This document shows positions 12,350 to 63,858 of a stretch of 64,000 bases of DNA, in pieces (the first letter of the stretch is position 1; the number at the start of each line of letters is the position of its first letter). Under the pieces are notes generated by a model. The model was not told where the DNA came from and did no database searches. It saw only the letters and a list, made by a program, of their open reading frames with translations. Source of the stretch: Aradus depressus. Taxonomy: Eukaryota > Arthropoda > Insecta > Hemiptera > Aradidae. The DNA lies in assembly GCA_963662175.1 (NCBI GenBank), contig OY759215.1:23859079-23923078 (forward strand). Reading direction: 5' to 3'. The position numbers were made by a program, and so were the translations under genes.

Positions 12350-12395
12350 TCCCAACGATGTTTCGGGACGTTCTTACGTCCCTTCATCAGGTCCC
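12350..12395 (-). ncRNA. Hammerhead-like ribozyme motif, D type, single copy
   Basis: On the reverse strand: CTGATGA (12384-12390), one A, then a perfect 6-bp stem II (GGGACG/CGTCCC, loop TAAGAA, 12365-12382), then GAAA (12361-12364) and ACATCGTT. This is the core order of a hammerhead ribozyme, with the extra nucleotide between CUGAUGA and stem II shared by all copies in the window. Stem III is weak in this copy, so activity is doubtful. Confidence 0.5.
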
Positions 12396-12399
12396 AATG

Positions 12400-13594
12400 T
12401 GCGAGATATAGAAAAGAAAAAAAAAAACATATAACAATATATTTAAAAAAAATTTAAATAAAATAAATATATATTTATATATTAATCAATTATTAATTAA
12501 TTAATTAAAACGTCTAAATAAATGAATAAAAAATATATAAGTGAATAAATAAAAAATTATAAATGAATAAATGAGACAATAAGGTACATTGGACTGACCT
12601 TTAAGGTGTGGAGGAACTCTGCCCAAAAAATAAAAATGAAAGCTTTGTATCAAATAATGTTTTTGGATATGAAACACGATTCTTTATTGTGATTATATTA
12701 TTCTTTTTGAACAGTGAGAATAGAATTTCGTTTCCGTGTAAAGGGTTTGCATACCTTGGTCTATACTTGGGCTCTAACAGGAAGGGATGGATGGTGTGTC
12801 TACTCGTGAGATTGTCCGGAAATTAGAGAATAGTTTCGTGTCCTCTGACTCAACCCAGGTAACCTTTAAGTAGTATATTTATATTCGGTATATTAAAATG
12901 AATAAATGATTCACAGACTAGGATTGTGGATCGGAAATGAGTACCCCTTGGAATAGCTATATAAATCCCATCTCCGCAGATATAGAATGTGAAAACTGTT
13001 GAGTTGTTATCCAATTCCTTTTAAATATATTCCTTAATGTCTTTTATCTTTTCTTTTTTTTAATTCTTGTTTTGTTTGTCTGCGTTGGACCTTCAAACTG
13101 AAAATTAGTCATATGTTTTGGATTTTGAAAATGCCTTCTGTTTTTATCGCCTTCAGGTAGACAACAAATGTCTTGCTTCAGATTCACTTTCTGATCTTAG
13201 ATCCCAACTAAGCCTTCTTTAAGGGATAGCCATAAAAAATTCCACAACACAAATCCTTATCTTAAGGTCTTTCTGGACAGAAACTAATTTCATCCCTCTT
13301 TCATCTGTTCTCCCTTCAGAAAGTATAATTTACACCTTTTTTGGCCTTTGTCTGACTTTTAGTATGAAGGTACTCTGAGGTAGAGAAATATTCCAGGGAG
13401 CTTGATGATGCCGTCTGAGCTGGCTGGGCAATTTTGTTTTAATTGAACTTGTAGAGAAACCATGTCCCGTTTCCTCCTGGTCTATATTATTAGTGTAAAG
13501 CTCATTGAGGATGTTCCATCCGTGGCGGATCTATGGGGTAGTGGTGGGGCTAATTACCCACAATACCTCCTCCCCCAGAAAATAATTTTTTTTT
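12400..13594. other. Unassigned AT-rich stretch
   Basis: Strongly A/T-rich at 12420-12560. An open frame of 72 codons at 12608 shows no family resemblance. No gene or known repeat is recognised. Confidence 0.4.
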
Positions 13595-13865
13595 TACTTC
13601 CTCAGCTATATGAAGTATAGGGGAAGTTATGTAATCGGTAAGAAATTCGATGTTGAGTTTTCACTCGAATTTCATACTTTTCGACCTTCTGATTTCAGAA
13701 ATTAACAAAAAAAATTGTCTTGGGGAATCAGAGGAGGGGATTAAATAACCCTAATAACCGCCGATGTAATGGATGTATCGACACGAAATTTCATATGTTA
13801 TTTATTCAAAACCCAATAAGGATGACACCTATTAATTTCCATTGGAAGAAAACCGTTGACGGCAA
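13595..13865 (+). repeat. Rep2 copy (head plus one unit)
   Basis: ACTTCCTCAGCTATATGAAG and AGGGGAAGTTATGTAATCGG form the head hairpin. One internal unit follows (ACCGCCGATGTAATGGATGT). Confidence 0.8.
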
Positions 13866-14028
13866 CTAATTACTATCAGGGTGACTCATCTGTACAAAAG
13901 TGATTGGTATAAGAAATCGTAATGGCCACATCACATATATTTCTTATTGACTTAGTTTCGCAATACATTTGAATTTCAAAATAACATCTTTAAATTTTAA
14001 AAGTTTAAAAATACCTACGAGTACTTTA
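13866..14028. other. Short unassigned spacer
   Basis: No feature seen between the Rep2 copy and the SINE tail. Confidence 0.4.
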
Positions 14029-14087
14029 GTTAGTTACTATGACTCACGCCCGGGCTTCAACTACATCCATATACCAGAGCGCTCTTT
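14029..14087 (-). mobile_element. SINE-A, tail-side half, split by a palindromic element
   Basis: Reverse-strand SINE-A tail (ATGACTCACGCCCGGGCTTC) up to AGAGCGCTCTTT. The same element resumes at 14944 with AGAGCGCTCTTT repeated, so those 12 bp are a target-site duplication made by the insertion between them. Confidence 0.9.
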
Positions 14088-14160
14088 AATATGAAGATGG
14101 CTGATGTATTGAGAAGTGATTATTTCACAGGTTGTCAAATAAGATGTAGTCTGACCTCTC

Positions 14161-14217
14161 ACAGATTTTTATTAGCTAGCCGGCGTTCGAGGTTGCCCTC
14201 ATCATCAGGCAGTCTGT
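14161..14217 (-). ncRNA. Hammerhead-like ribozyme motif, A1
   Basis: Reading the reverse strand: stem I 5' strand ACAGA, then GC. Core CTGATGA (14202-14208) and one T follow. Stem II is GAGG, loop GCAA, CCTC (14189-14200). Then come GAAC (GAAA in the sister copy), the self-complementary GCCGGC (14179-14184), T and A at the predicted cleavage site, then GC and TCTGT. GC/GC and ACAGA/TCTGT pair to make an interrupted stem I. Stem III would form only between two copies through GCCGGC, as in dimeric hammerhead variants. GAAC in place of GAAA probably weakens it. Confidence 0.6.
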
Positions 14218-14364
14218 TAAAATATATATATATTTTAACAGACTATTAACATCTGTTAACATAATATATAGATTATTATATATTATATATATATATTTTT
14301 TAATTTGAATGAAAATTAAAATATTTTAGTAAATAAAATTTAAATTTGTTTATAATAAAAATAA

Positions 14365-14710
14365 GAGGGCGCTGGTAGCTCAGTGGTATGCGTGCTTGAC
14401 TTCTGAGCTCAAGGTCGTGGGTTCGTAGCCCGACCGAGGCCCTTAGTTTATTTTATCTGGGAGGTAAAATAAACTTAAGCACGCCGTCCTTCGGATGGGA
14501 CGTTAAGCGATGGTCCCGAGCCTGTACGATGTCAGGTACTCGTTAAAGACCCCTACCCTAGATGAATAAAAATTTAGGGTAGGCAAAATTTAGGACTCCC
14601 ACAGTAGAGTCGGGCTCATGTCCACCAGAGTGACAAAAGAGCGCTCTGGTAGTAGGCGATATGACCTCGTAGTTAAAGCCCGGGCATGAGTCATAAAACC
14701 TAACCTAACC
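14365..14710 (+). mobile_element. SINE-A, full length, nested, 12-bp target duplication
   Basis: TAATAAAAATAA occurs at 14353-14364 and 14711-14722, directly bounding 346 bp. Box A is TAGCTCAGTGG and box B is GGTTCGTAGCC (mutated). Hairpin H1 is GTTTATTTTA against TAAAATAAAC, perfect over 10 bp. The tail is CATAAAACCTAACCTAACC. This copy fixes both ends of SINE-A exactly. It lies inside the palindromic hammerhead element and so is the youngest of three nested insertions. Confidence 0.97.
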
Positions 14711-14844
14711 TAATAAAAATAAATAAATAAAACCATCTAAAAACATTAACAATTTAAAATTTCATGGATGGGGACAGATAAGTTATTCCTGTCCCCCATA
14801 TGAGTCACAACTCTCAAGTTTCAAAAAAAAAATATATATTTTAC

Positions 14845-14905
14845 CAGATTGCCTGATGATGAGGACAACCTCGAAAGCCGGCTAGCTTATACTAATAAAA
14901 ATCTG
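14845..14905 (+). ncRNA. Hammerhead-like ribozyme motif, A2
   Basis: CAGAT (14845-14849), T, then GC; core CTGATGA (14853-14859) and one T; stem II GAGG, loop ACAA, CCTC (14861-14872); GAAA (14873-14876). The self-complementary GCCGGC follows (14877-14882), then T, then A14884 as the base before the predicted cleavage. GC (14885-14886) pairs with the 5' GC, and ATCTG (14901-14905) pairs with CAGAT. All core bases of the hammerhead consensus are present. Stem II differs from the sister copy only in its loop, and both halves of stem I still pair. Confidence 0.7.
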
Positions 14906-14943
14906 TGAGAAGTCAGACTACATCTTATTTGACAACCTGTGAA

Positions 14944-15126
14944 AGAGCGCTCTTTCGTCCCTCTAGTGGACATGAGGCCGACTTTACTATGGGAGTCCTA
15001 AATTTTGCCTACTCAAAATTTTTATTCATCTAGGGTAGAGTCTTTATCATTCAGGCTCGGTACCATCGCTTAACGTCCCATCCGAAGGACGGCGTGCTCA
15101 GTTTATTTTACCGCCCAGATAAAATA
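14944..15126 (-). mobile_element. SINE-A, head-side half of the split copy
   Basis: Continues from 14087 after the duplicated AGAGCGCTCTTT. The tRNA-like head is absent: the copy ends within hairpin H1 (CCGCCCAGATAAAATAAATA). Confidence 0.9.
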
Positions 15127-15689
15127 AATAACCATAATCTCCCTATTTAACAAAAAGTAACATATAAATCTTTGAATCTCCTACAGATTGGAGTCGGTCT
15201 TTGACCCCTGAACCCTTTGAACCCTGAAAGTAAGGCAGTGATGAAGAATAGGACGGAGTCCGAGGACCTATTATGCAAAGCTTTATGCCTGTTAGTATCG
15301 TGGAAAGACTGAGACTTATGAAAGCTACGTATATAGCCCTACACTGTAAGTGAGAGTAAACACCAGATAGCCAAATGGCTCCTCATCTTTCAGAGATAGT
15401 CATCTGTGCTTATTTTTTAAGGCAGACCAGTTGATAAGGTAGGCAATAAATAGGCTGAAGGAAAGTTTGCGTATAAATTCTTTTTTTTAAAATAATTTCT
15501 GAAGAATGTCGGTCTTTTTAAGTTGAAAAAAAAATAAATAAATTGTGTTTAAGTTGTATATGGTTAAGTTAGATATCAACATCAAAAGTTGTAATTATTA
15601 TTTTATTTCTGCTTCTTTTTCATTTTTATAATATTTATAAAATAAATATTATTTCAATATTCACTTTTCACTTTTTACGTCATGATATT
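15127..15689. other. Unassigned stretch
   Basis: 15180-15400 is somewhat GC-richer and unique in the window, with no continuous reading frame. 15480-15660 is A/T-rich. Nothing recognised. Confidence 0.4.
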
Positions 15690-16928: not shown

Positions 16929-17127
16929 GTTTTTTAAACTTCTCTGGGATGTTGAAATGTAGATTTTTTCTTTTTTTCCGGCATTTCTTCCAGAGGTGTC
17001 TTCTTTTTTTCCCTTTTTAGGCAATATTTCCGGACACACGTCCCTTCTCTTGGTAACTATGAACCTCGTTCAAAAAGAAGACACCTCTGGAAGAAATGCC
17101 GCAAAAAAATTTAAAAAATCAACATTG
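16929..17127. mobile_element. Palindromic hammerhead-related element, E type, 8-bp duplication
   Basis: Flanked by CTTAATGT (16921-16928 and 17128-17135). The arms are inverted: GCATTTCTTCCAGAGGTGTC at 16981 and its complement at 17075-17096. Between them GGACGTGTGTCC could form stem II next to GGAAA, but the CUGAUGA box is lost, so this copy is probably dead. It is the same family as 19172-19396. Like the element at 14088, it landed inside a SINE-A. Confidence 0.7.
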
Positions 17128-17215: not shown

Positions 17216-17224
17216 TTGTGATTA

Positions 17225-18849: not shown

Positions 18850-20245
18850 TCATTAATGAAATGAAACTTTATTGCGTATAGAGATACAAATCTCATAGTA
18901 AGGGAGTAAGCGGGTTGATTACTAGTTCACACATAAATTTAATACATTTTATATATATAACATAATATATAAAAGTTTATATATCAATACAACTTATAAT
19001 TAAACATAGAAAATATAACAAACTTAATTAAACAAAAAATTAATTTCAGAAGATACAACATTATAAATATGGGCCGAAGTTAAGAAAAGAAAAATACCAA
19101 CTGTTGTGAAATGTGTTATATTGAAATGTATATGGTAAACGAGAGGGCAAATCATAATAAAACTGTTTCTTGTTGGTTAATTCCCGCATTTCTTCCAGAG
19201 GTGTCTTCTCATTCTTTTTTTCGACAATATTTCGGGACTCTTACAAGTCCCTTCTATGAACGACGTTCATAGTGACCGGAAGAAGGGACTTGTAAGAGTC
19301 ACGAAACATTGTCGGAAAAAAGAATAAGAAGACACCTCTGGAAGAAATGCCGGAGTTAACCAACAATGTAACATCCCAGAGAAGTTTAAGAAACACAAAA
19401 CTGTTTCTTCTAAATTTTAAACTATTAGTTACGAAAATAAATATATTATTGATTTTTTCATCATCATCGTCATCAATACTTAACAAATTAATTATTTTAT
19501 CGGAGATTGCATTATAGTGTGAAATATATTTCTTGATTTTGTTTCTGTATTGGTTTAACATTGGAGGAGTTATGAGAAGATGGAGTATGTTATCATTATC
19601 ACTGTTACAAAGTGGACAAACAGAGTCAAGCTGAAATTTAGCCGTAATTGTGAAATAATTCTTTGTTTGCTTATATGGTTCCTCATTTTTAAATAACTTC
19701 CACTATTGCCAAAAGAGCTGAAATTTCTGTAAAAGGTATTGATGTTTCCATTAATGTAGAGTTTCACTGGCCTTTCAAAGCGGTATTATTTTTGACAGAC
19801 TTTTCAACGTTGGGATGCAATGTTGTGACAATAAATCGGTGTGATATCGGTTTAGTAGAACGAGGAGAATAAATATTATTTATTTTTTTATTCCAGTCTG
19901 GAAGGTGAAAGTGAGTTTCTTGACACGGATATCTTCACGAGATATTAAGAACTTGAGAGTTTTTCTGACCTTTTCGCGTTATTATTATTTGAATATACTT
20001 GATAGGGATCTGTGAACAGATAATAACCTCAATTTTGTTTAGTTCAAAGCCGTATTTTCTAATCTTTAACGTTTTGCATACCTTATTTAGGATGTTAGCC
20101 AACTTGGGCGTGCCATCTTCGGAAAATTGGCCAATTCTGCTCAACACCTCATATTGAAAAACAAACAAGAAACTCAATACCTGTACTTCCATGTCTTCAA
20201 AATTAATTTCAGGTTTCTTCATATATTGAACATACGTTGTCACAT
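18850..20245 (-). pseudogene. LINE remnant: RT C-terminal part, zinc motif, 3' UTR (interrupted)
   Basis: The reverse strand, with frameshifts, reads from about 20243 through the end of a reverse transcriptase domain (LNKVCKTL, then KYGFELNKIEVIICSQ, comparable with the GLELN-KTK-M block of LINE RTs). At about 19620 a CPLC zinc-like motif follows with ILHLLI and then RNKIKKYISHY, typical of the C-terminus of several LINE clades. The 3' end is CAATAAAG followed by TTTCATTTCATT at about 18851-18870. A hammerhead palindrome is inserted at 19172-19396. The frame is broken, so it is a dead copy; clade not determined. Confidence 0.75.
19172..19396. mobile_element. Palindromic hammerhead element, E type, 13-bp target duplication
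   Basis: AAAACTGTTTCTT occurs at 19159-19171 and 19397-19409, exactly bounding 225 bp that interrupt the LINE. The arms are inverted copies: GCATTTCTTCCAGAGGTGTC at 19185 and its complement at about 19335-19354. Each arm holds GGGACTTGTAAGAGTC-like stem II sequence next to CGAAA and ATATTGTC or ACATTGTC. The centre is TGAACGACGTTCA, itself a palindrome. The CUGAUGA box has decayed (CGGAAGA in the right arm). No coding capacity. The 13-bp duplication shows it arrived by insertion and did not arise as a local hairpin duplication. Confidence 0.8.
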
Positions 20246-20800: not shown

Positions 20801-21693
20801 ATTTTAAGCCTTTTTGTTCTGTTTTTATTCTCCCAACTATGTGCACCGATGTTCGTATTCTTGTCTTGATTGCCATAGGAAACATAAAGCTAACTTTATC
20901 TGTAAACTGTATTACCCTAGTAGGTATGTTACCTATCTCTAATCGGATATTTCACACGATACCATGCTCATTAAAAACTTAAAAATTCATAGAATAATTT
21001 AACCTTTTCACAAACCACGTTAGAAAATAATACATTTTCTGCTTTAGCGGCTCCACTATAAAAAAAAAAACCAGAATGCATTTAGTATCATTTATGCTAT
21101 AATAAAGATTCTCCTGTTTTGCAATTCCATTTGTTAACTTTTATAAATATTTATCATTATGATAATGTAATTGTCTGTTAATTCTTCAAGGTTTTTTTCT
21201 ATTTTCTTTCCTACAGAAAACTATTTAAAAATCAAATTTGAATTGCCATACCAATTATACATAGTCATAATGTGTAGAGTATTTGAGTTACAAATGGAGA
21301 TATTTTATTGTCCTGAGAGCCATATTCAACAGTATTGTCTGACAATCTCTTCTCGTCTCTTTCCTTTCTTTCTCTTCCATTTTGTTTTGTTGTCCTTTTT
21401 ATAACCATTGAAATTATAGGTGTAACCTCCCATCAACTTAGTAATGTTCTTTTAATCATTCTTGGTAAACCTCTTCATGGCTGCAGTTAAAATTTTTAAT
21501 TATCACTTGTTCTATCCTAAAAAGGAGAATCCTAAATAACATGTGGATTTTCTTTTGTAAGTATATTTAGGATTTATATACCTTATTTGGGTGTTGGGAT
21601 AAAAGCAGTGTGTTTCCCATTATTAAATATTGAAGTAAAAAATTAGGATTTTATTATATATATACCACTGTACATATATAGAGAGTATATTTA
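20801..21693. other. Unassigned AT-rich stretch
   Basis: Two open frames of 72-77 codons (20764, 21171) lack coding composition or family resemblance. Nothing else is seen. Confidence 0.4.
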
Positions 21694-22010
21694 GAGGGCG
21701 CCGGTGTGGTATGCGTGCTTGCCTTCTGATCGTGGGTTCGAAACCCGGCCGAGGCCCCTAGTTTATTTTATCTTGGAGGTAAAATAAACTTAAGTCCTTC
21801 GGATGGGAAGTTAAGCGATGGTCCAGAGCCTGTACGATGTCAGGTACTCGTTAAAGACCCCTGCCCTAGGTGAATCACAATTTAGGGTAGTCAAAATTTA
21901 GGACTCCCATAGTAGAGTCGGGCTCATGTCCACCAGAGTGACGAAAGAGCGCTCTGGTAGTAGGCGATATGACCTCGTAGTTAAAGCCCGGGCATGAGTG
22001 TTAATAACTA
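21694..22010 (+). mobile_element. SINE-A copy with box A deleted
   Basis: Otherwise close to consensus, but it carries three short deletions of 6-8 bp: AGCTCA from box A, the GAGCTCAA region of the anticodon arm, and CACGCCG before H2. Loss of box A should abolish internal pol III transcription. Box B GGTTCGAAACC is intact. The tail is TTAATAACTA. Confidence 0.9.
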
Positions 22011-22029: not shown

Positions 22030-22545
22030 TGTATTTGAGTCGAGCCCTCCTTCTCTGATTCTCTCTTCCCTTCGGCCGCTTCCGCGGAAAATTGATTGGT
22101 GCCATCCTATGGGGTTTTGAATTTAAATATAAAATTTCATGACAATACTTTCATTACATCGGCAGTTATTAGGATTTTTGAATTAGGCCTTCCTTTGATC
22201 TCCCCTTCCCTTCTGATTCCTCTGAAAATGAATATGTGTCGTCCTTAAAGGGTTTTGATTATGAAATTTCGTGTCAATACATTAATCAAAAGGGCAGTTA
22301 TTAAAGTTTTTGTGTTGTACCTCCACCCTAATGCCCCCCTTCCCTTTGGCCGCTTTGGCTGAAACAGGATTCTCGATACACATATAAAATTTCGTCTCGG
22401 TACATTCAATCTTTTGAGAGTTATCATACATACACACACAGAGACAGACAATTTTTTTTTCCATTTTTGGAATAAGAGGGAAGACATGAAATTTCTTTGA
22501 AAACTCAACATCGAATTTCTGACCTATTACATAACTAACTGATAA
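22030..22545 (-). repeat. Rep2 copy
   Basis: Reverse-strand internal units (TACATCGGCAGTTATTAGGA and others) and head (AACTCAACATCGAATTTCTG). The tail is truncated. Confidence 0.8.
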
Positions 22546-24246: not shown

Positions 24247-24249
24247 GTT

Positions 24250-24486
24250 AGTTAGTATGACTCATGCCCGGGCTTTAACTACAAGGTCATATCGCCTACT
24301 ACCAGAGGGCTCTTTCGTCACTCTGGTGGACATGAGCCTTACTCTACTGTGGGAGTCCTAAATTTTGCCTACCCTAAATGTTTATTCACCTAGGGCCGGG
24401 GTCTTTAACGAGTACCTGACATCGTACAGGCTCGGGACCATCGCTTAACGTCCCATCCGAAGGACGGCGTGCTTAAGTTTATTTTA
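24250..24486 (-). mobile_element. SINE-A, truncated at hairpin H1
   Basis: Reverse-strand copy tail-to-tail with the previous one (ATGACTCATGCCCGGGCTTT). It ends at AGTTTATTTTAG, inside the H1 stem; the tRNA head is absent. Confidence 0.9.
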
Positions 24487-27700: not shown

Positions 27701-28734
27701 GAATGTGACGAGTCTATGCCAATAACTTTCATAACAATGATGGAAATAATGAGGCAAACTCTGATCATATGATAAGATTCTGTAATGTTAACTTAGTCTT
27801 ATCTCTTATGCTTTTGGCTGAGGATGGTAGAAATACCGAAAGTACTCCTATGTAAATATAGTTGGTGAAATTAGACAATATCATAAATAAACAAGTTTTA
27901 TTTCTTTCAAGTTCATCTGATCATATGGATGTTGATAGCTAAGATGTCGATAGATTAACTTGATGAATAATAATTATTATTATAAACTACATGACAATGT
28001 ACAATACTGATAAACTTTCTCAAGCAAAATCCCTGGAGAGTGATGAACTGTGCATGTTTCCATGACAAATTGTACACTATACGATAATAACATTTTGTTA
28101 CAACTACTCTCAATATTTCATTCCTGAATACTCTCTTAAGATCGACCACTTTCAACATAATGCTTCTTAAGAGCATACATTCGTCAATTCTATTACTTTT
28201 CCCTAACAAATTTACATAGAAATTTTACAATTTAATAATTTCAATTTGAAATTATTTCCATTTAAAATTACTTAGCCAAAAATTATTTTCAACCAAAAAA
28301 ATCACAGATGAGCTCCGCTTCTGTCGCGCGTCCCGCGACGCACACCGGGTTTTTAATCTGATCAATAGTTTCATGGTATCGATAATAGAGGATAGATAGT
28401 ACTTCAGAATCGACTATAGAATGATAGGATGTGATAGAAGCCGTGCCCAGGTAGTGTTGGCCGGACATGGCTCTATCCGGAAGTGTGGTTCCCCGGATAC
28501 CCTACATCCGTCACACTCCTCTGGAATGTTGAGTAGCTCCCTCCGCTCTCTGCTTACTATCTTAGCCCTCCTATTCATGTTCTTCGCAAGTGCTCACTTG
28601 ACAGTTTAGAGGCCATCTTGCTACTGACCCATCCAATCAAATTGTTTGTTTTTTACCCTAGCAAACGAGTGAATTTGATTGGAGGATGATTTTTAATCTT
28701 CATCGTCTAATGACGATGTCACCTTACGAAAACG
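27701..28734. other. Unassigned stretch with one hydrophobic short frame
   Basis: A 27-codon frame at 28526-28609 (MLSSSLRSLLTILALLFMFF and a short tail) looks like a signal peptide, but it has no clear donor site and no partner exon. GC-richer patches lie at 28310-28350 and 28430-28600. Otherwise AT-rich with no repeat assigned. Confidence 0.3.
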
Positions 28735-31335: not shown

Positions 31336-31424
31336 ACATGATAAGGTAGGCTACACGAATGCAGGGTTCGACATGCTTGAACACGCAAGTGCCTGTTCAA
31401 GGTCACAAAATCAGACTGAATTGG

Positions 31425-31660
31425 AGGGAGAACGGAAACTTATTGAGGTTTAGAGGGAGAGCGGAAACTTATTAAGGTTTAGGGAGAGAGCTGAAACTTA
31501 TTGAGGTTTAGAGGGAGAGAGGAAACTTATTGATGTTTAGAGGGAGAGCGGAAACTTATTGAGGTTTAGAGGGAGAGCGGAAACGTAATGAGGTTTAGAG
31601 GGAGAGTGGAAACGTATTGGGGTTTAGAGGGAGAGCGGAAACTTATTGATCTGGGGATGT
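31425..31660 (+). repeat. 29-bp minisatellite derived from the Rep2 tail
   Basis: About eight units of TTGAGGTTTAGAGGGAGAGC plus GGAAACTTA. The array ends in CTGGGGATGTACTATGGTGG and GTGATTCCC, the normal Rep2 3' end. So a 29-bp piece of the Rep2 tail was amplified in place. A G run of about 13 bases follows at 31690. Confidence 0.85.
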
Positions 31661-33323
31661 ACTATGGTGGGTGATTCCCAGCTGTGGAGGGGGGGGGGGG
31701 GGTGATGGTCACGTGGGGTCAAAGGTCATGAGGAGTAATTAATTAGTAATTTTAATAATTTTAGTCACATGACGTCTCCCTCGCTCTCTTGGGGAACGTG
31801 ACATGACGTCACACTTTTTCGAACATGCGGCCCGTCGCATCGATTTATTAGACGTAGTCACGTCAAAAAAACAAAAAACTTTTATTTGAATGAACTAAAA
31901 AGGAATAAATAAGTGATTAATTTTGTTACATATGATATGCTACGTACTTATAAAGTTGAATCTGTATTTATTAATACGTCAAATAATCATTTGAAAAGTA
32001 AAAGATTGTCGCCTGCGAATTACGCTACAGTTTAATACTAAATAATACACAAATAGGCTTGTGAGCGACAAGCTTTTAGTTTTCAAATTAATATTGTTAC
32101 GTATATCCATATATATACCGCTTCAACTTTATAAGAACGTAGCATATCAAATGTAACACAATTAATTACTTATTTATTCCTTTTTAGTTCATTCAAATAA
32201 AAGCTTGTTTTTAAAAAAGTGTTTTTATTTATATAATTATTTATATTGTATTTCCGCATATAAGAAAATCTTCTATTTATTTCTATTGCAATAAATTTCA
32301 TTGCATCTTGGCGTTGCATGAAATTTAAATACGGTATATTTACTTATTTTTAGTACTAATATAAGTGGAGAGCACGACATTAATTGCCGAATGTTACTTT
32401 ATTCTTACTATATAAAGTTTGTTTAGACTTCATATTTCCTGTCATTTCTTCAAACGTTTTTAATATTATTTTATTAATACAAAGTTAAGAGAACTGGTCC
32501 CGGTCACGCCAGACTAGGTTTGGAAACCGACTCTATACAGCCTATCCTTGTGTAGTTACAAGATGTCCGTGATAAATGCCGCCTTCTCAGGGCATTAATT
32601 ATTAAATCATGAACTTTATTAGAAGCCATTAAATAGGATTTGCCTTGAGATGCCACCCTGCTGGCTCCACGGAATCTCCACATTCCTTCCTGCAAGCCGT
32701 CTTTTCGTCTTTACATACCATCTGCATAATACCATCTTGGCTACGTTGGATCCTAATTAATATTTTGACCTTCAAGTTTTGACTTGTTTTTATGTAGTTT
32801 CTGCAACAACCATCAGCTCAACATATCAATTCAAGTGTAGGTACGCGCCAAGATGATAAAAAATATATTGTGATAATAAATATAAAATTATCATTATCAC
32901 ATTTCTTGTAGAAATTGTTTGCTGATCTTCTACTTAATTTTGCTTTCTACAGTAGTTTCCGAAAAGGGCTCTAAAAAAACTATGTAGAAAGTTTATGACA
33001 TGCAATTTTGAAGAAAGTGCACGTATATAAAAACATTTCAATTAACAATGAATTCATTTGGATTCTTCTAAATATATGTATAATTCTGAGATGCCATCAA
33101 ACATAAAAGATCATCATGGCAACCAGCGAAAAACGAAGTTTAAACAGAAAGAATTCACATTGAGAAACAAATCAGATAATATTAACTGTTTGAACCAATA
33201 AATCAATAGTACAAAACGATTTAGAAAGTTTAAAATGTCATAAAAGCAATTCAACATAACCTATAAAAGGCTTATCAGAGAACAAGTTTTAACACTGATT
33301 AAAACGCAAATCAATAAGACATT
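31661..33323. other. Unassigned stretch
   Basis: 31900-32220 contains a loose inverted repeat: ATATGATATGCTACGTACTT near 31930 and its near complement near 32130, with TTTAGTTCATTCAAATAAAA near 32185. A reverse frame at 32504-32695 is not recognised. No gene is assigned. Confidence 0.35.
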
Positions 33324-35469: not shown

Positions 35470-36000
35470 GCTAGTGGACATGACCACGTAGTTAAAGCCC
35501 GGGCATGAGTCATCACAATTACTAACTAATTTTCTGACATTTCCTATTTGGGGGATTATACTTTCCTTCTTTCCTCAGGTTCATTGTGACCTTTCATCGT
35601 CCTGAAATATCGTCTAAAAAAAACATTTCTGGAAGCTATAGTTTAGCTTTAGTATATACTAGTATAACTTTTAGTATATAAAACTATAAACGAATATTTA
35701 TACTTTTTTCTCAAACAACGTTACGAATAATTTTATTATTCATCAGGATCTGACTTGAGGACCAGAAACTAAAGCTAAACGTTTATACTTTTATATACTA
35801 AAAGTTATATTAGTATATACTAAAGCTAAACTATAGCTTCCAGAAATGTTTTCTTTTAGACGATATTTCAGGACGATGAAAGGTCACAATGAACCTGAGG
35901 AAAGAAGGAAAGTATAATCCCCCAAATAGGAAGTTCCGAAAATTAGTTAGTAATTGTGATGATGCCCGGGCTTTAACTACATGGTCATGTCCACTAGCAG
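35470..36000. mobile_element. Long palindrome containing SINE-A ends and hammerhead-like cores
   Basis: The left arm (about 35480-35710) and right arm (about 35770-36000) are inverted copies about 220 bp long. Both include a SINE-A tail (AAGCCCGGGCAT side), AATTACTAACTAATTTT, GGGGGATTATACTTTCCTTC, TTCATTGTGACCTTTCATCG and CATTTCTGGAAGC. At the hinge, the reverse strand has CTGATGA (35740-35746) overlapping a 7-bp hairpin (GAATAAT/ATTATTC, 35725-35741), then GTAACGTT. This is the hammerhead order with one core change (GTAA for GAAA). Confidence 0.65.
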
Positions 36001-45304: not shown

Positions 45305-45695
45305 CTGTTTAACTTTTGTATTGTCTAATTCCACAGAAATATATACATAAAGTTCGGGTTACACCAGGGTCAGCACAAAGTTCAAAAGTGAGATTTAGGT
45401 TTGCTAGGTTGTCATATTTATACAATCCTCAGGTTACCTGAGCTTACTTAAGGCTGTGAAAAACACAAATATTTGTAAATTTAATTTAAAGCAGGACTTC
45501 CCCCCTCCCATGGACTTTGCTAGGAGACAGTGTGTCACAGTCTTCGGTAATGTCAGGTAACCTGAGGATTGTATAAATATGATAACCGTATAATAACCAC
45601 AATATTTTAACTTTGTACTGACGATGGCATAATCTAAACCTTATATATACGATATCTTTTTGTTGAATTAGACAATATACATGTTAAACAAGTTC
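45305..45695. mobile_element. Palindromic element, C type, decayed
   Basis: The inner arms are perfect over 30 bp (45412-45441 and 45553-45582, TCATATTTATACAATCCTCA and on). The outer arms share TTGTCTAATTC near 45322 and 45673. The right arm keeps CTGACGATGGCATAATC, the C-type hammerhead core, but GAAA is lost. TATTGTCTA at the outer ends matches the element at 52163. Confidence 0.65.
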
Positions 45696-46569: not shown

Positions 46570-47060
46570 CATCGAGCTAAGTTGTGAAGGGAATTGGTGG
46601 GTTTCTCTGTAGAGTGATCATGACTGGCTTTAGCTCTGACGGCGTCTTTACTTCGTTGTCGTGTTATGTTACTGATGTGTCACGAGGTTATAAGCTATTC
46701 TAATATTTCGTTCTGAAGTTTTGTCAACAGTTTTTAACTAATGAGTGAGCCGTAAAATAATTCCATATTTCCAAACTTATTCCTGATTTTCTCTTTGTGA
46801 TTATATTTTAATTACACGACTATCGTATGTATTGCCAAAAAAATAATTATAAATGAATAAATCCCCGATTTGGAGGCAAATTCATATTAGCAAAACACAA
46901 AATTACACAACGTGATGTTATCAGATTATGAATATGTGAATATAGATTTACACATATCCTATTACCATGATAAGGTTTAACGGAAATAACAAAAAAGCGC
47001 AAAAAAAATGAAGTTTTAATTAGAACTAATATTAATATTTCACTTAGAAATAAAAGATGT
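46570..47060. other. Unassigned stretch
   Basis: No feature recognised; AT-rich towards the right. Confidence 0.35.
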
Positions 47061-47083
47061 TGTCTTCCCACCGTTTTTTTTAG

Positions 47084-47125
47084 ACCAGAACCTGTTTTCG
47101 ACGTAACAGCGTCATCATCAGTGGT
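47084..47125 (-). ncRNA. Hammerhead-like ribozyme motif, B1
   Basis: On the reverse strand: ACCA, CTGATGA (47115-47121), one T, then stem II GACG ... CGTC (47100-47113), GAAA (47096-47099), ACAGGT, T, C (predicted cleavage after C at 47088), TGGT. ACCA and TGGT pair as stem I. The second copy at 63817 reads ACCGAT in the stem III position; together they imply an ancestral self-complementary ACCGGT. The surrounding 100 bp (ATAAAAGATGTTGTCTTCCC) is shared with that copy. Confidence 0.65.
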
Positions 47126-47489
47126 GCATCTATCATAGAATAACAAAATATACAAATAATAAAAATTATAAATAACTCTTAAAGCATCAGGGCACAGAGT
47201 AAGAAAATAAAAATTATAAAATTAACTTACCCCACCCACACAGCACAGCGGTTAGAAGACAACTGGCATAGCTCTAAGGGATGGGGATAGCTAGGTTCAC
47301 TCACTCTCTCTACATGCAAAAACCATTCATTCTAATATATACTAGTACTAATATATAGACTCTGATCTCTCCTTCCTAATAAAGAATTACTCAGAAGTCT
47401 ATGACAGTATATTTCATTAACTACAACTTGCTTCTACTCTAAACTCTGATACGACTTGTTTCATGACTATCATTCAATTAATCAATGCC
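47126..47489. other. Flank of the B1 ribozyme copy, then unassigned
   Basis: ACCCACACAGCAC at about 47235 recurs next to the B2 copy, marking the element body. The rest is unassigned. Confidence 0.4.
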
Positions 47490-48615: not shown

Positions 48616-48735
48616 ATGTTACTAGGAAGAGGGGTAGATCAGGCTTGCCAAGGTTTCAGCATTCGTAACTGTTTTTATCGTGGACAAACTGGCCGGAAGT
48701 TGAGGACTAGGAGTGGGGAACATTTGAAGCTTAGC
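48616..48735 (+). pseudogene. Possible GIY-YIG endonuclease remnant (Penelope-like element)
   Basis: The frame reads CQGFSIRNCFYRGQTGRKLR and then TRSGEHLKL. It resembles the second half of GIY-YIG domains in Penelope-like retroelements (the YVGQTGRSLKTRxxEH pattern), where GIY-YIG sits after the reverse transcriptase. Here VGQTG is RGQTG and the first GIY part is missing. Only about 30 residues are alignable, so the assignment is tentative. It matters because Penelope-like elements are the known carriers of the ribozyme type found in this window. Confidence 0.4.
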
Positions 48736-49205: not shown

Positions 49206-49640
49206 TTGTCAGAATTTTATCCTCATTGGGTTTTGACCAAATAGGAAATTTCATGTCGATACATTCAATACATCGGCGGTTATTGGAGTTTTTGAGTTGA
49301 GCCCTCCCTTCCCCTTGGCCGATTCCGCTGAAAAATAAAAAGTGTCGCCCTTATGCGGTTTTTAATTGACATATGAAATTTTGTGTCGATACATATATTA
49401 CAACGGCAGTTATAAGAGTTTTTCTGTTATGCTTCACTCCGTAATCACCCCCTTCTCTTTGGTCAATTCGTCTGAAAATCAATAGGTGTTGTCCTTATGG
49501 AGTTCTAGATGCATATAAAAAATTGCATATCGATACATTAATTCTATCGGGAGTAATCGTGTTATTAGACAAATGTGTACAACGAACAGCAATTTTTTCC
49601 GTTGAAAACTGAGCGATTACATAACTACCCCTATAGCAAA
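49206..49640 (-). repeat. Rep2 copy
   Basis: GATACATTCAATACATCGGC, GATTCCGCTGAAAAATAAAA, AATTCGTCTGAAAATCAATA: three internal units, with a truncated head. Confidence 0.8.
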
Positions 49641-49915: not shown

Positions 49916-50258
49916 TGAGGGCGCCGGTAGCTCAGTGGTATGCGTGTTTGCCTTCTGAGCTCAAGAACGTGGGTTCAAAACCCGGCCGAGGCCCTTAGTT
50001 TATTTTATCTGGGAGGTAAAATAAATTTAAGCACGCCGTCCTTCGGATGGGACGTTAAGCGATGGTCCCGAGCCTGTACGATGTCAAGTACTCGTTAAAG
50101 ACCCCTGCCCTAGGTGAATAAAAATTTAGGGTAGACAAAATTTAGGACTCCCACAGTAGAGTCGGGCTAATGTCCACCAGAGTGACGAAAGCTCTGGTAG
50201 TAGGCGATCTGACCTCGTAGTTAAAGCCCGGGCATGAGTCATAAACCCTAACCTAAGT
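49916..50258 (+). mobile_element. SINE-A, full length
   Basis: GAGGGCGCCGGTAGCTCAGT, box B GGTTCAAAACC, perfect H1 loop region with one stem change (TAAAATAAAT), tail CATAAACCCTAACC. TAAGTTTA occurs at 49905 and just after the tail and may be a target duplication. Confidence 0.93.
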
Positions 50259-52022: not shown

Positions 52023-52262
52023 ATATAAATCTGTAGTTTGGTCTGTCCGTGCGTAACAAGTTGGCGTAAAAACTAATGAATCAATTTGGATGAAATTTCA
52101 TCCGTAGCATCCTTATAAGCTGGATTGTATCATAGGCTGTGTGACGTCTCGAATATTTTAACTTCTAAGTTGAGAAACGCGGACATATTGTGGAAACTTG
52201 TAATAAATAAATAAAACAAACTTATTTTTGAAATATTGTCTATTCCACTAAAGATATATGTA

Positions 52263-52312
52263 CATATATAACTACCGGTTTCGGCTTTATACCATCGTCA
52301 GGTCTAGTTATG
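52263..52312 (-). ncRNA. Hammerhead-like ribozyme motif, C1
   Basis: Mirror image of C2 on the reverse strand, with the same core: CTGACGA, T, GGT-ATAAA-GCC, GAAA, CCGG, T, A. CATA/TATG and AC/GT form stem I. Confidence 0.65.
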
Positions 52313-52321
52313 AACTAAGTT

Positions 52322-52371
52322 CATAACTAGACCTGACGATGGTATAAAGCCGAAACCGGTAGTTATATATG
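52322..52371 (+). ncRNA. Hammerhead-like ribozyme motif, C2
   Basis: CATA (52322-52325) and AC (52331-52332) are the 5' half of stem I. Core CTGACGA (52333-52339) and one T follow. Stem II is GGT, loop ATAAA, GCC. Then GAAA (52352-52355), self-complementary CCGG (52356-52359), T, and A52361 before the predicted cleavage. GT (52362-52363) and TATG (52368-52371) are the 3' half of stem I. All conserved core residues are present. A CCGG-based stem III needs two molecules. Confidence 0.7.
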
Positions 52372-52442
52372 TATATATATCTTTAGTGGAATAGACAATA
52401 TTTCAAAAATAAGTTTGTTTTATTTATTTCGAATATTTTAAC

Positions 52443-58249: not shown

Positions 58250-59010
58250 ACTTACATAGGGGCTCCTAAATCCTGTCATAACATCCTAAATCCTAATAAC
58301 TGCCGATGTAATGAATTCATCGGCAGTTATTAGGATTTTTGAATTGAGCCACTTCCCCTGAACCCCTACATCTCTTCGGGCGATATCTCTGAATTTGACA
58401 TTATATCCTCATTGGGTTTTGACCAAATATGAAATTTCATGTCGATACATTCAATACATCGGCGGTTATTGGAGTTTTTGAGTTGAGCCCTCCCTTCCCC
58501 TTGGCCGATTCCGCTGAAAATTAATAAGTGTCGCCCTTATACGGTTTTGAATTCACATATAAAATTTTGTGTCGATACATTCATTACAACAGCAGTTTAA
58601 GAGTTTTTCCGTTACGCCTCACCCCTACTCACCCCCTTCTCTTTGGTCAATTCGGCTGAAAATCAATAGGTGTTGTCACTAAGAGGGCTTTGGATTCACA
58701 AGTACAAGTTTATATCGATACATTCATTACAACGGTAGTTTAAGAGTTTTTCCGTTACGCCTCACCCCTAATCACCCTCTTCTCTTTGGTCAATTCGGCT
58801 GAAAATCAATAGGTGTTGTCACTAGAGGGTTTTGGATTCACATGTACAAGTTTATATCGATACATTCATTCTGTCGGGAGTTATCGTGTTCACAGACACA
58901 CATTTGTTTTTATATTTGGAATCTAGAGGTCAGAAAACAAGAAATTCCGTTGAAAACTCCGCATCGAATTTTTGACCGATTACATAACTTCCTCTATATT
59001 TCTCATGGCT
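58250..59010 (-). repeat. Rep2, nearly complete, with duplicated unit
   Basis: At least four internal units. Those at about 58575 and 58725 are nearly identical (CCGTTACGCCTCACCCCTA, TCAATTCGGCTGAAAATCAA, period about 148 bp), showing a recent unit duplication. The head ends at about 58990 (ACTTCCTCTATATTTCTCAT). Confidence 0.85.
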
Positions 59011-60169: not shown

Positions 60170-60340
60170 TGGGGAGGAGAGTGATCTGTAAAAAAGTGGT
60201 TGGTAAAAGAAAGTCCTTTTATGGCCACTTTACATATATTTTACTTTTTTTTTGTTTAAAATTGAATAAAAAACGACCAATAACAAAAAAAAAATTAAAA
60301 TTCATTGCCATCTCCATTAAATCCCTCCTCCCTTCAGCCG
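60170..60340 (+). repeat. Dispersed repeat shared with 48770-49054
   Basis: GTGATCTGTAAAAAAGTGGT, GTCCTTTTATGGCCACTTTA and AAAATTGAATAAAAAACGAC match 48790-48900. Confidence 0.75.
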
Positions 60341-60970
60341 ATATAGTCCTCATTGGGTTCTGACTTCAAATATGAAATATCACGTCGATACATACCTACG
60401 TTACGTCGACAATTATTGAGGTATTTGGGTTGAGCCCCTTCTGATCACCCCTTCACTTCTGCCGATTCCGCTGAAAATTAATAAGTGTCGTCCTTATAGG
60501 GGTTTGAATTCACATATGAAATTTTGTGTCGATATATTCATTAAAACGGCAGTTATTAGACTTTTGACTCAATGCTCCCCCCTAATCCCCCCTTTCCCTT
60601 GGTCCGATTTAGCTGAAAATCGATAGATGTTGTCTTTATTAGGTTCTGGTTCCAAATATAAAATTTCGTTTTAATACATTCATTTTATCGGCAGTTATTA
60701 AAGTTTTTATTTAAACCTTCCCCTAATTCTCCCCTTCCCTTTGGTCAATTTCGCTGAAAAACAATAGGTGTCATCGCTAGAGAGTTCTGGATTCACATAT
60801 ACATTTTTTTGTCGATACATTTATTCTATTGGGAGTTATCGCGTTCACAGACAGACAGAATTTGTTTTTCATATTTGGAAGAAACATGAAATTACGTTGA
60901 AAATTTCTCTTCGAATTTTTGACCGATTACAAAACTTCCCCAATACTTCGTATACGTGGGAATGTAAAAC
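60341..60970 (-). repeat. Rep2 copy, nearly complete
   Basis: Several units (GATTCCGCTGAAAATTAATA, TTAGCTGAAAATCG, TTTCGCTGAAAAACAATAGG) and head ATACTTCGTATACGTGGGAA. Confidence 0.85.
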
Positions 60971-61195
60971 ACCTTCCTAAAGCGGCTGACTGTAAAGGTG
61001 CATAAAACCAATACTGTTGTTTACAAAACAACAACTGCACAGGAGAAAAAAACCGACTTAATTAATTACTTAAACAAGGATCCTTTTATAACTCCTAACG
61101 TTATTTAATTAAGTAGGACGGTATAAAATTTTATTGTCTGATGAAGGAAGCACTCCAAGGTTTTGTTTTGTGATGTTTTTGTTTTTGTTCTCTAG
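60971..61195. other. Spacer before exon C
   Basis: Contains the long T/G-rich tract (61160-61190) that leads into the exon C acceptor. Confidence 0.4.
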
Positions 61196-61276
61196 TTAAC
61201 CATGAAACCCCAGAGGCTTGGGAGCGTAGAGCCGGTGCGCTGCATCACGATCAATGCGGTCAGCAGGCTCAGAAAT
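61196..61276 (+). CDS. Exon C candidate (extracellular part of the type II protein, or partner of 56584)
   Basis: A GC-rich 81-bp segment (27 codons) lies between a strong acceptor (TTTTTGTTTTTGTTCTCTAG) and the donor AAAT/GTAATT. Entered in phase 1 from exon B, the joining codon is T+TT (Phe) and the exon reads NHETPEAWERRAGALHHDQC then GQQAQK, ending again in phase 1. Entered in phase 0 it reads LTMKPQRLGSVEPVRCITIN and AVSRLRN without a stop, so it could instead follow the exon at 56584. G-first codon bias favours the phase 1 reading slightly. Neither product is recognised. Confidence 0.4.
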
Positions 61277-61424
61277 GTAATTTTTTCAAATTGCAATTTC
61301 ACCAGAAAAATTTATGCACTCTTGAAACATCGCGAAAATCGTATTTTTCTTATATTTTTCTAGTCTCAAACCCTACAAAATTTTATATTCATAACTGTTT
61401 AACAATTTTTTTTTATTTTATTTT
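61277..61424. other. AT-rich spacer
   Basis: No feature beyond the donor at 61277. Confidence 0.35.
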
Positions 61425-61600
61425 ATTTACAAACAGGTATTTACAACTGTATAAAAATAAATGCAACAAGCAAATATGCTAATGGAAAGGTAATGGCAAT
61501 GTCAAAATGTCAAGAGGGGAGAAATCACCCAGTGGTGACACTCTCTAGTCACTGATTTCCTCTCATTTGAAACTAATCACTGTCACTGTCCGTTCGTAAT
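61425..61600 (-). pseudogene. Jockey-like LINE 3' UTR (5' truncated)
   Basis: The reverse strand ends in an A-rich tail (T-rich at 61405-61425 on +). ACAACTGTATAAAAATAAAT, GTCAAGAGGGGAGAAATCAC and CTCATTTGAAACTAATCACT match 7260-7400. Confidence 0.75.
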
Positions 61601-61924
61601 TTCGGTCGATTACAACACCCCTTTCTCGTAGGCGGATTATTGCCCCGAAATGACCTTTGATATGTACCTTACCTTGAGTAAACTGCAGAATATTCGAACT
61701 GTCTGTTGCGTGAAAAGGATGCCTCCAAAGTTCTTCCCGCCAGTCATCCTATACCTGCATCCTCTTAAATTGATTCCCTCCTATGTCTGGTTAACATAAT
61801 ACCGCTATACCTACAAGAAATGTTCTAGTCATTGGGATTTTTTTTTTGCCGAAATTAAATTTTTTACAAAACCTTTTTAGTTTTTTATATGTGCCTCCGA
61901 TGCGTAGGAAAGTGATGAACTAAT
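61601..61924. other. Unassigned stretch
   Basis: No feature recognised. Confidence 0.4.
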
Positions 61925-62350
61925 GAGAAGATGGCTGATGTAGGTAGTGAGAAGTGATTATTTCACAGATTGCAAAATAAAAACATATTCTGACCTCTCA
62001 TAGATTTTATTATTATGTGCTAGCCGGCCTTCGATGTTGCCCTCATTCTAATGTCTAAAATAAATACAGCAACTAATTAGTTTTGTTGAACAATTCATTT
62101 TAGCGCATAGTCAATGTTTTTATGTATTTATTTTAGCCATATCTGGGAGCTGAAAAACCCTTGAGCAATTCGTCCTTCGAGAGATGGTCCCGTGCCTGTA
62201 CGATGACAGGTACTCGTTGAAGACCTCAATCATATGTAAATAAAGATTTAGATCAGACAAAATTATGATTTTTTTGCAGACAACTTGATGATGAGGGAAA
62301 CCTCAAAAGCCGGCTAACATATAATAATAAAATCGATGAGATGTGAGCTT
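61925..62350. mobile_element. Palindromic hammerhead element, A type, decayed, with SINE fragment inside
   Basis: The left arm (GATGGCTGATGTAGGTAGTG, GCTAGCCGGCCTTCGATGTT at about 62020) and right arm (TTGATGATGAGGGAAACCTC at about 62288, AAAAGCCGGCTAACATATAA) are inverted copies of the 14088 family. Cores have mutations: the right arm has TTGATGA and AAAA, and the left lacks CUGAUGA. A SINE-A fragment lies between the arms, as at 14365. Confidence 0.7.
62148..62272 (+). mobile_element. SINE-A fragment, B subfamily
   Basis: ATATCTGGGAGCTGAAAAAC, GATGGTCCCGTGCCTGTACG and AGGTACTCGTTGAAGACCTC. Head and tail are missing. Confidence 0.8.
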
Positions 62351-62391
62351 TTTAAAAAAAAAAATCTGTAACAACAATTAAGATAGTTTGT

Positions 62392-62667
62392 TATTGTGAC
62401 ATGCTAGGGCTTTTAACCACGAGGTTATATCGCCTTCTACCAGAGCGCTCCCGACCCTTTAGTGGAAGTCCTAAATTTTGTCTACCTGAGGTTGATTCAC
62501 CTAGGGTAGGGGTCTTTAACCATTGCTTAATGTCCCATCCGAAAGACGGCGTGCTCAAGGTTTTTTGACCTTCCAGATAAATTACCTAAGAGCCTCGGGC
62601 GGGTTTTGAACCCGCGATCTTGAGCTCAGAATGTAAAGACGCTATCTCTGGGCTACCGGTGCCTTCA
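62392..62667 (-). mobile_element. SINE-A, B subfamily
   Basis: Reverse copy with GACATGCTAGGGCTTTTAAC at the tail, H1 GGTTTTTT against AATTACC (partly paired), complement of box B (GGTTTTGAACC) and head GGCTACCGGTGCCTTC. Confidence 0.88.
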
Positions 62668-63239
62668 ATTGTATATATAATTTATTTTTTATCTTTATAA
62701 TTATATGAAACTAGCAGGCTAAGGTTAGTATCTTCATCTGTCCGCTTAGAAACTCTATAGCTACCAGCGCTCTCCGACAATTAAGATAACAGAATTTTGG
62801 AGCCAAAAAAAAAAATCAAGATTTCCCCATAATGGATTACAAATAGTAGGCAAGGTATTTGCAGGAATAAGAACGACTTGAAGAAAGACCAAAACGAAGA
62901 AATAAAAGAAAGAAAGGTCAAGAAGAGTAGGTATTGTTTAAGGTATCAGAAAGTGGATCAGATAAGTGGTGAGGGAGGACAGTCTCACGATGATGGGGAA
63001 ACAAAAGATAGATCCGTGGAGAGATGAGCCAGGCTAGGGACAGATAGTTGGCCGGAGTCTAATGCAAGGATCACGAGCGTCACGTCCCTTTGGCAGTCTG
63101 TCTGACCAATCTGCAGAATGTGTCTCTTCTCTCTCTGGTAATTACTGGGCCATCGGACACTCAAGAGCACTCCTCAGGTCAGTCTCACACTCTCAGCTAT
63201 CAAGATGTCACAGAGTCGCTCCTCATGTTGAGTCTACCT
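62668..63239. other. Unassigned stretch
   Basis: A scrap of a SINE-A head (TATAGCTACCAGCGCTCTC) is at 62757-62776. The rest is purine-rich (62860-62990) with no gene recognised. Confidence 0.4.
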
Positions 63240-63380
63240 TCTATTGTAACTCTGCAAAAATGCTAGATCGAGTTTCAATGGAATTTCACGTTTCAAGCAT
63301 GAAATTTGAAATAACGATGTTAAATGTGCTAACTTAGATCTAATGAGATTTTGGCCTAAATCAGACGAAAATTAAGAAGT
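63240..63380 (+). repeat. Rep3 3' part
   Basis: TTTCACGTTTCAAGCATGAA, GTGCTAACTTAGATCTAATG and GAGATTTTGGCCTAAATCAG. Confidence 0.7.
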
Positions 63381-63479
63381 TTGTTTTATTTATGAAAATC
63401 GAATAAAATGTGTTGGGAAAACTATTAGAGACGTTTGCTTGATTTGCCGAAAACTGATAGCCCTATCAAAAAATTGACA

Positions 63480-63600
63480 AAGAGGTATCATCACGAAAAT
63501 GGTCAACAAAACGTATTCAGAGGACCTTGAAACGTGAAAATCCGTTGAAACACCAATCTCGAATTTTCGTACGATTATAATACTTCCTTATACTTCCCCC
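63480..63600 (-). repeat. Rep3 head, opposite orientation
   Basis: CATCACGAAAATGGTCAACA, CTTGAAACGTGAAAATCCGT and TAATACTTCCTTATACTTC. With 63240-63380 it makes an inverted Rep3 pair. Confidence 0.7.
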
Positions 63601-63816
63601 CCGCTCATCTTATAGGTAGAAAAACGGGATGATAGGCAAATGCTTGCCATCCTAGATCGGTTCTCACAGCCTTAGCTAAAATGAAACTGGGGGATGGTTG
63701 CATCCAAGTGGCACCACCAACTGAGATTGGATTCATATGTGATAGATAGTAAGAGGTTGCGGGACGAGATTTTTTATAGAAATAAAAGACGTTGTCTTCC
63801 CACTGTTTTACTTTAG

Positions 63817-63858
63817 ACCAGAATCGGTTTTCAACGCAACAGCGTCATCATCAGTGGT
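63817..63858 (-). ncRNA. Hammerhead-like ribozyme motif, B2
   Basis: On the reverse strand: ACCA, CTGATGA (63848-63854), one T, stem II GACGC, loop TGTT, GCGTT (63833-63846, 5 bp with a closing G-T), GAAA, ACCGAT, T, C, TGGT (63817-63820). ACCA/TGGT is stem I. Compared with B1 the stem II closing pair changes from G-C to G-T and the next pairs are kept. Confidence 0.65.

Follow-up and report, generated by a model that had tools for sequence, protein, structure and literature searches.

The stretch analyzed here (the window, 64 kb of the flat bug Aradus depressus; C2:23859079-23923078 of a 698-Mb, 74-contig genome assembly) contains a scattered set of hammerhead ribozyme motifs, two pairs of which lie in insertions of Penelope-like elements (PLEs; Table 1). 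We hold with high confidence that these motifs are minimal hammerhead ribozymes located in the pseudo-long terminal repeats (pLTRs) of several PLE families, and in truncated or inverted offspring of those families; this confidence applies to their identity and not to their role. They are of a known kind, being a very abundant and large new set of the published PLE hammerheads that lack stem III.

Each motif opens with the 5′ strand of stem I, followed by the core CUGANGA, a single extra base, and stem II; GAA then leads into a self-complementary word running from A15.1 to U16.1, after which come H17 and the 3′ strand of stem I. Cleavage is predicted after H17. An intramolecular stem III is absent, and the loop-less word stands in its place. 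The canonical core (CUGANGA...GAA, A15.1-U16.1, and H at position 17) is present, with a mutated word in some window copies; several of our scans and patterns demanded parts of this core. The first-pass annotation of the window had listed six motifs with this order, all of which are present, and had named four cleavage sites (14884, 52361, and, on the minus strand, 47088 and 63821), which proved right by counting. Absent from its list was a seventh at 27818 (+), reading CUGAGGA-U-GGUA-gaaa-UACC-GAA-AGUACU-C, which we call type D (the letter names are coined here). Among its more degraded copies, the one at 12350 is a copy of type E, and those at 62020 and 62288 form a decayed type-A divergent pair; the one at 45590 reads CTGACGATGGCATAAT and is type-C-like by eye, while those at 35725 (type-J-like) and at 16990 and 19200 (type-E-like palindromes) are plausible by eye only. 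One correction concerns the self-complementary word of type B, which is decayed in both window copies (AACAGGUU and AACCGAUU). From these two copies we inferred AACCGGUU, which was then seen as the dominant intact word (31 of 42 type-B motifs in loci L001-L030, the window's own copy counted).

Table 1. Features of the 64-kb window related to hammerhead motifs and PLEs. For the motifs of types A, B, and C, the coordinates run between C3 and the cleavage base, as obtained by counting (on the minus strand, C3 is the higher number). ORF, open reading frame; SINE, short interspersed nuclear element.
Feature	Coordinates	Strand	Details
Type-E element fragment	12307..12470	-	
Type-E hammerhead-like motif	12357..12390	-	extra base A; word ACAU, not self-complementary
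Left 12-bp target-site duplication of type-A PLE insertion	14076..14087	.	AGAGCGCTCTTT; inside SINE
Type-A PLE insertion unit	14088..14943	.	divergent arms
Type-A hammerhead motif	14177..14208	-	cleavage base A17 = 14177; GAAC; word CGCCGGCU, first letter mutated
PLE ORF C-terminus remnant, minus arm	14749..14817	-	23 aa, 78% to L065
Type-A hammerhead motif	14853..14884	+	C3 to A17; GAA-AGCCGGCU-A; stem II GAGG/CCUC; extra U
Right 12-bp target-site duplication of type-A unit	14944..14955	.	AGAGCGCTCTTT; interrupted SINE resumes at 14944
Type-D element fragment	27796..27915	+	
Type-D hammerhead motif	27818..27847	+	GAA-AGUACU-C; stem II GGUA/UACC; extra U
Type-B element 3′ end	47045..47187	-	
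Type-B hammerhead motif	47088..47121	-	GAA-AACAGGUU-C, decayed word; commonest genome form AACCGGUU
PLE GIY-YIG region fragment	48670..48729	+	80% over 20 aa to L065 ORF, E 1e-4
Left 10-bp target-site duplication of type-C unit	52153..52162	.	ATATTTTAAC
Type-C PLE-derived palindromic insertion	52163..52432	.	tail on left (minus) arm
Type-C hammerhead motif	52273..52301	-	GAA-ACCGGU-A; stem II GGU/GCC
Type-C hammerhead motif	52333..52361	+	second arm of palindromic unit
Right 10-bp target-site duplication of type-C unit	52433..52442	.	ATATTTTAAC
Type-B element 3′ end	63776..63863	-	
Type-B hammerhead motif	63821..63854	-	GAA-AACCGAUU-C, decayed
Decayed type-A arm of divergent pair	61921..62046	-	
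Decayed type-A arm, partner of 61921..62046	62265..62347	+	

Excess over chance and motif types

We compared the motif with shuffled and reversed controls. A scan for the exact CTGANGA followed by 0-1 extra nt, a stem II of at least 3 pairs (at least 3 of them Watson-Crick), and GAA found six places in the window (12390-, 14208-, 14853+, 27818+, 47121-, and 63854-), whereas 40 dinucleotide shuffles averaged 0.55 such places and never exceeded 3; the scan skips the two motifs of type C, in which only 2 pairs of stem II are Watson-Crick. When the exact self-complementary word was also required, two window matches remained (14853 and 27818), ~200-fold above 100 shuffles (mean 0.01, maximum 1). 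Across the genome, the pattern CTGANGATGGN{3,10}CCGAAA (the stem-II class CTGANGATGG..CCGAAA) gave 22,590 matches vs. 5 for the reversed control, and CTGANGATGAN{4,12}TCGAA..H gave 10,886 vs. 6, both >1000-fold above the reversed pattern. A third pattern, CTGANGATGCN{3,10}GCGAA..H, gave 91 matches vs. 4, some of which (e.g., those ending in A-rich tracts) are not motif-shaped, and an A.G mismatch at the second stem-II pair gave 94 vs. 3, many of these looking like single-change copies of the paired families. The genome counts are of matches in a few large families, not of independent events; the patterns impose the core, the extra U, and the first stem-II pair, and those for the second pair are not quite uniform, using either GAAA or GAA plus H. 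A loose scan allowing one mismatch does give 0.63 matches per shuffled window, as expected if the motifs were chance matches in AT-rich repetitive DNA, but the excess of exact matches in both window and genome refutes that explanation.

Twelve motif types could be told apart, with stems II that are unrelated in sequence yet paired, and with a self-complementary word after GAA in 11 of the 12. Stem II and the word are, respectively, GAGG/CCUC and AGCCGGCU in type A, GACGC/GCGUC and AACCGGUU in type B, GGU/GCC and ACCGGU in type C, GGUA/UACC and AGUACU in type D, GCA/UGC and ACCGGU in type G, GCC/GGC and AUAU in type H, GCCC/GGGC and AUAU in type I, and GAUAU/AUAUC and ACGU in type J. Type E has the stem GGGACG/CGUCCC, and in the two copies seen its word is not self-complementary. 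Type F (GAAAAU/GUUUUC, ACGU) is a single copy in L014; type K (GAACGC/GCGUUC, AUGCAU) occurs in two places and has a one-change relative among the A.G-mismatch matches; and the twelfth type, again a single copy, is that of L083, in which C3 is changed and the word is ACUAUAGU. Types C and D have common downstream sequence, so not every type represents a separate lineage.

The extra base and the first pair, G10.1-C11.1, are constant in types A-F and L083 with no scan demanding them; for types G-K, the pattern itself demanded both. The second stem-II pair is G-C (22,590 matches), A-U (10,886), or C-G (91), and the third varies more widely. The first-pass annotation had stated that primary sequence differs between types while pairing holds, and had named stems varying without compensating change as evidence against its reading; stem II bears the statement out, being unrelated between types yet paired. 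Position N7 is free in hammerheads, and A, C, G, and U were all seen there in our motifs; at H17, the types read have A, C, or U, as several scans and patterns demanded.

The extra base itself is U in types A-D and L083, A in type F, and, in type E, A in the window copy and U in L005:3037; single type-B copies with A also occur (L016). The corresponding pattern with no extra base, CTGANGAGGN{3,10}CCGAAA, gave only 118 genome matches (vs. 12 for its control), many of which look like T-to-G changes of type-C and type-D copies. Given 118 matches without it against 22,590 with it, the stem-II class CTGANGATGG..CCGAAA comes close to requiring a single extra base.

Since an extra U makes A9-U-G10.1 an AUG, we considered whether the conserved feature belongs to PLE DNA or coding sequence (e.g., this AUG and its context) and not to RNA structure. 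The same two counts, the 22,590 matches being those with U as the extra base, would fit a start codon, and in PAc, a Poseidon PLE of the anole Anolis carolinensis, the ORF starts at that AUG (PMC11167929). In our motifs, however, stem II switches between unrelated complementary sequences (compare types A, B, D, I, and J), and the frames opened by the AUG differ between types, several closing within a few codons (MRETSKAG stop in type A, MV stop in type C). Unlike in PAc, the AUG of the uninterrupted type-A element L065 opens only the 8-codon frame MRETSKAG ending in UAG, with the 859-aa frame further down, and start-codon use therefore cannot be the whole reason. We reject a coding or DNA-level explanation as very improbable.

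Penelope-like carriers and two-ended insertions

The first-pass annotation had guessed at a link to PLEs, and this link is shown for types A and C. A genome search for the GIY-YIG endonuclease (EN) domain (PF01541) returned 1852 candidates; 150 were scored and all 150 passed, the longest open frame being 859 aa. This longest frame, which is uninterrupted, belongs to the PLE L065 and carries RVT_1 (387-563, 1.7e-12) and GIY-YIG (737-813, 1.8e-6) domains. An identical 691-bp direct repeat (the EN end plus the pLTR) flanks its ORF on both sides, and type-A motifs lie in these direct repeats, i.e., in both pLTRs, at 601 and 3420, 2819 bp apart. To avoid circularity, we chose loci by domain: 20 of the 150 endonuclease matches, hand-spread over rows 1-66, were inspected over the 1.2 kb downstream of each. 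In 15 of the 20, an exact core with stem II follows in the sense direction 277-412 nt downstream (type A in 6, type C in 9), with the word intact in 13 (L069 and L084 being the exceptions); none of the 20 has an exact antisense motif. L083 makes a sixteenth locus, with one core mismatch and the word ACTATAGT. The type-C loci L051 and L052 encode a PLE reverse transcriptase (RT) and EN with 34-38% identity to L065. For the remaining types, insertion geometry (B and D) or the motif alone (E-K) suggests that they are PLE-borne. The type-B pair L016/L025 was rejected as a complete element (L031), as its sole open stretch >80 aa falls outside the pair. At C1:10704408-10710687, three type-J motifs run in the same direction at intervals of exactly 3123 bp; these are probably a tandem PLE array.

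These carriers bear on whether the motifs could instead belong to animal retrozymes, small non-coding tandem repeats of ~150-450 bp (sizes as given in passages of PMC7229834) with type I hammerheads and circular RNA. The ribozyme class is identical, and passages of PMC7761336 propose that retrozymes are mobilized by PLEs. Against this, types A and C sit downstream of PLE endonucleases, and the tandem spacings are 2819 bp (L065) and 3123 bp (type J), far from retrozyme lengths. The A and C carriers are PLEs and not short non-coding tandem repeats, those of types E-I and K being untraced, and we reject retrozymes as the source, considering them extremely unlikely.

In the window, the paired motifs at 14161/14845 and 52263/52322 each belong to one insertion, flanked by target-site duplications of 12 and 10 bp, respectively. 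The minus arm of the type-A unit is the longer, comprising the C-terminal remnant of the ORF, the 3′ region with a nested SINE (14365-14708), the motif, and a tail, while the plus arm is short and begins near 14846. We compared pair orientation and arms among the first 100 matches listed of each of the 22,590- and 10,886-match classes, all on contig C1, with subtypes pooled by first letter for the orientation count; a labeling error at one place there leaves the counts unchanged. Neighboring matches of the same type at most 3 kb apart are arranged minus-then-plus in 51 of 55 cases, 8 of the 51 being copies of one ~70-kb tandem repeat. Type-D pairs recur on C1 at 135.3, 207.2, 272.0, 349.4, 420.9, 489.3, 554.2, and 689.1 kb (~135-690 kb, L035-L050), and the five of them that were inspected have identical flanks; the series looks like a tandem repeat of ~65-77-kb units near the contig start.

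Target-site duplications were sought at 18 distinct divergent pairs (11 of type B, 4 of C, 2 of D, and 1 of A) with a search reach of 52 nt. A tail is present on exactly one arm in 15 of the 18, on both in 1, and on neither in 2; tails were scored for B, C, and D only, and the type-A pair thus counts as neither, its minus arm extending into a tail when compared with L065. Direct repeats of at least 9 bp occur in 9 of 18 pairs vs. 2.3% of swapped left/right combinations, and 16 of 18 have a repeat at 7 bp vs. 26.5% swapped. Measured from the arm ends, the nine longer repeats lie at -4 to 4 nt on one side and at 32-42 nt on the opposite side, the far side being the tail side in eight of the nine, i.e., in all those with a scored tail. 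An earlier test on 21 pairs that disregarded tails showed no excess (0.19 observed vs. 0.19 in the control for at least 7 bp), and the tail-aware test was designed after tails were seen in its output. A stretch like AGTGRAATAGACAAYAT, common by eye to types B, C, and D downstream of the motif and before the insertion ends, may be part of a reverse-transcription start signal.

In all 12 type-J pairs (permutation p 0.0004; one pair spans 7.7 kb) and all 7 type-A pairs (p 0.08), the two arms have the same diagnostic loop base. By eye, the 14 type-C pairs among the listed matches of the 22,590-match class also agree and one type-D pair (2902603/2903578) disagrees. Both arms thus appear to come mostly from a single subfamily, as would be expected of self-priming or of two transcripts made at one locus, and this argues against random mixing of RNAs.

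Proposed role and the evidence against it

Lacking stem III, a single motif would act with a second copy, the two pairing through the word (AGCCGGCU, AACCGGUU, ACCGGU, AGUACU, ACGU, and others) into a double hammerhead. Such dimer action, suggested by the self-complementary words, has been proposed for variants of this kind in passages of PMC6466107, PMC7761336, and PMC3088659. The partners may be the neighboring pLTRs of a tandem transcript or two separate transcripts. Cutting would take place after H17, probably with help from the protein of the element, since the anole ribozyme cut only with protein added (PMC11167929), and it would process multi-unit PLE transcripts upstream of the ORF, with those RNAs that became insertions having escaped cutting at the 3′ motif. 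We lean towards this processing role, considerably less firmly than we hold the identity of the motifs.

Several results weigh against the identity or the role proposed here. Stem I is short and less well supported, with 1-4 pairs adjoining the core (2 in type A, 3 in C and E, 1-4 in D, and 4 in B and F). The Rfam search, put forward as a check by the first-pass annotation, gave no matches in the window at the gathering thresholds and no hammerhead even at E ≤ 10; Rfam hammerhead models expect an intramolecular stem III. (Several weak microRNA matches from Rfam coincide with inverted repeats in the SINE and in the type-C palindrome.) The motif was not found in 4 of the 20 GIY-YIG-selected loci (L066, L072, L077, and L079), with type-A sequence stopping before the motif in L079 and degenerate type-C sequence in L077, and a coding PLE was shown at the motif for types A and C, not for types B and D-K. 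In dimer co-folding of six types, word-to-word pairing was predicted for type A only; in type B, the word pairs with the 3′ flank, and other folds were obtained for C, D, D2, and F. In all 15 alignable type-A and type-C loci, the element extends past the cleavage site; the extension measures 60-72 nt in 8 and 97-115 nt in 7, consistent with ends lacking and carrying the tail, respectively. Because the element continues 60-115 nt beyond the site, the templates of these 15 loci were probably uncut there, and cleavage at the 3′ motif does not appear to set the 3′ end of these insertions. The anole ribozyme works only with protein, insertion in vitro proceeds without it, and no cleaved RNA ends turned up in public reads (PMC11167929).

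These last points fit a fold kept mainly as a platform for RNA pairing and protein binding (for the start of reverse transcription or template dimerization), with self-cleavage weak or incidental. The extension beyond the cleavage site and the dominance of divergent two-ended insertions among the matches listed are both in keeping with such a platform, as is the finding that ribozyme-dead anole RNA inserts normally in vitro, the protein cleaving and extending both DNA strands (PMC11167929). On the other hand, mere pairing would not need a hammerhead core. N7 is as free here as in hammerheads, and H17 is A, C, or U, the last point tempered by the scans and patterns that demanded it. We consider a platform possible but the less probable function, and retain the processing ribozyme as our working interpretation.

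A further, rather doubtful idea is that the word is kept since it ties together two sister transcripts of one PLE locus, the dimer templating both DNA ends to yield head-to-head insertions with a single tail, with the ribozyme cut or silenced at about that step. The arm agreement noted above (12 of 12 in type J, 7 of 7 in type A) is in keeping with a single source locus or with self-priming.

Minimal type I hammerheads of PLEs and Terminons were reportedly described by Cervera and de la Pena in 2014 and by Lunse, Weinberg, and Breaker in 2017. From what is reported of them, the motifs described here share their core, the missing stem-III hairpin, the site in the PLE pLTR, the tandem copies, and the proposed dimer action. 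In PAc, the hammerhead likewise lies at the border of the pLTR and the ORF, with C3 and G8 before the AUG at the start of stem II; insertion ends likewise fall downstream of the cleavage site, and both DNA strands are used (PMC11167929). The Penelope elements of Adineta vaga, as described in passages of PMC3846280, resemble ours in having direct and inverted pLTRs, mostly head-to-head, with 8-10-bp target-site duplications and a ~31-bp tail optionally on one inverted pLTR; the word "ribozyme", in contrast, occurs 0 times in the main text of that paper. For the repeat-type hammerheads of Aedes aegypti and others, passages of PMC3088659 propose dimerization through a palindromic stem III and loop III, as for our word, although the palindrome there is a short stem III plus its loop; matches mispaired next to the core were disqualified in that study.

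With its 12 motif types, its tens of thousands of matches, its two-ended insertions, and its RT-EN elements in uninterrupted frames, this one genome offers good ground for testing the role of the ribozyme. It already suggests that the RNAs that integrated had not been cut at the 3′ motif, and that an insertion draws both its arms from one subfamily. The extra base that precedes stem II is also a concrete feature for better search models, given that none of the window copies is found by Rfam.

Other repeats in the window

The window also contains at least a dozen copies or fragments of a tRNA-like SINE (14365-14708, 8266-8612, 49917-50256, 21691-22010, 24247-24486, and others), some in tight inverted pairs (24102-24238/24247-24383) that draw weak Rfam microRNA matches. 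A tandem family with ~123-144 bp spacing forms short arrays on both strands (2758-3327, 4095-4298, 22058-22424, 49222-49601, 58408-58925, and 60345-60880), and a 29-bp tandem repeat lies at 31392-31679, where a 114-nt stretch recurs seven times at 29-bp steps. Finally, a 153-aa open frame at 19241-19702 (-), with a weak zf-RVT match (E 0.006, under the cut-off), is probably the remnant of a long interspersed nuclear element.

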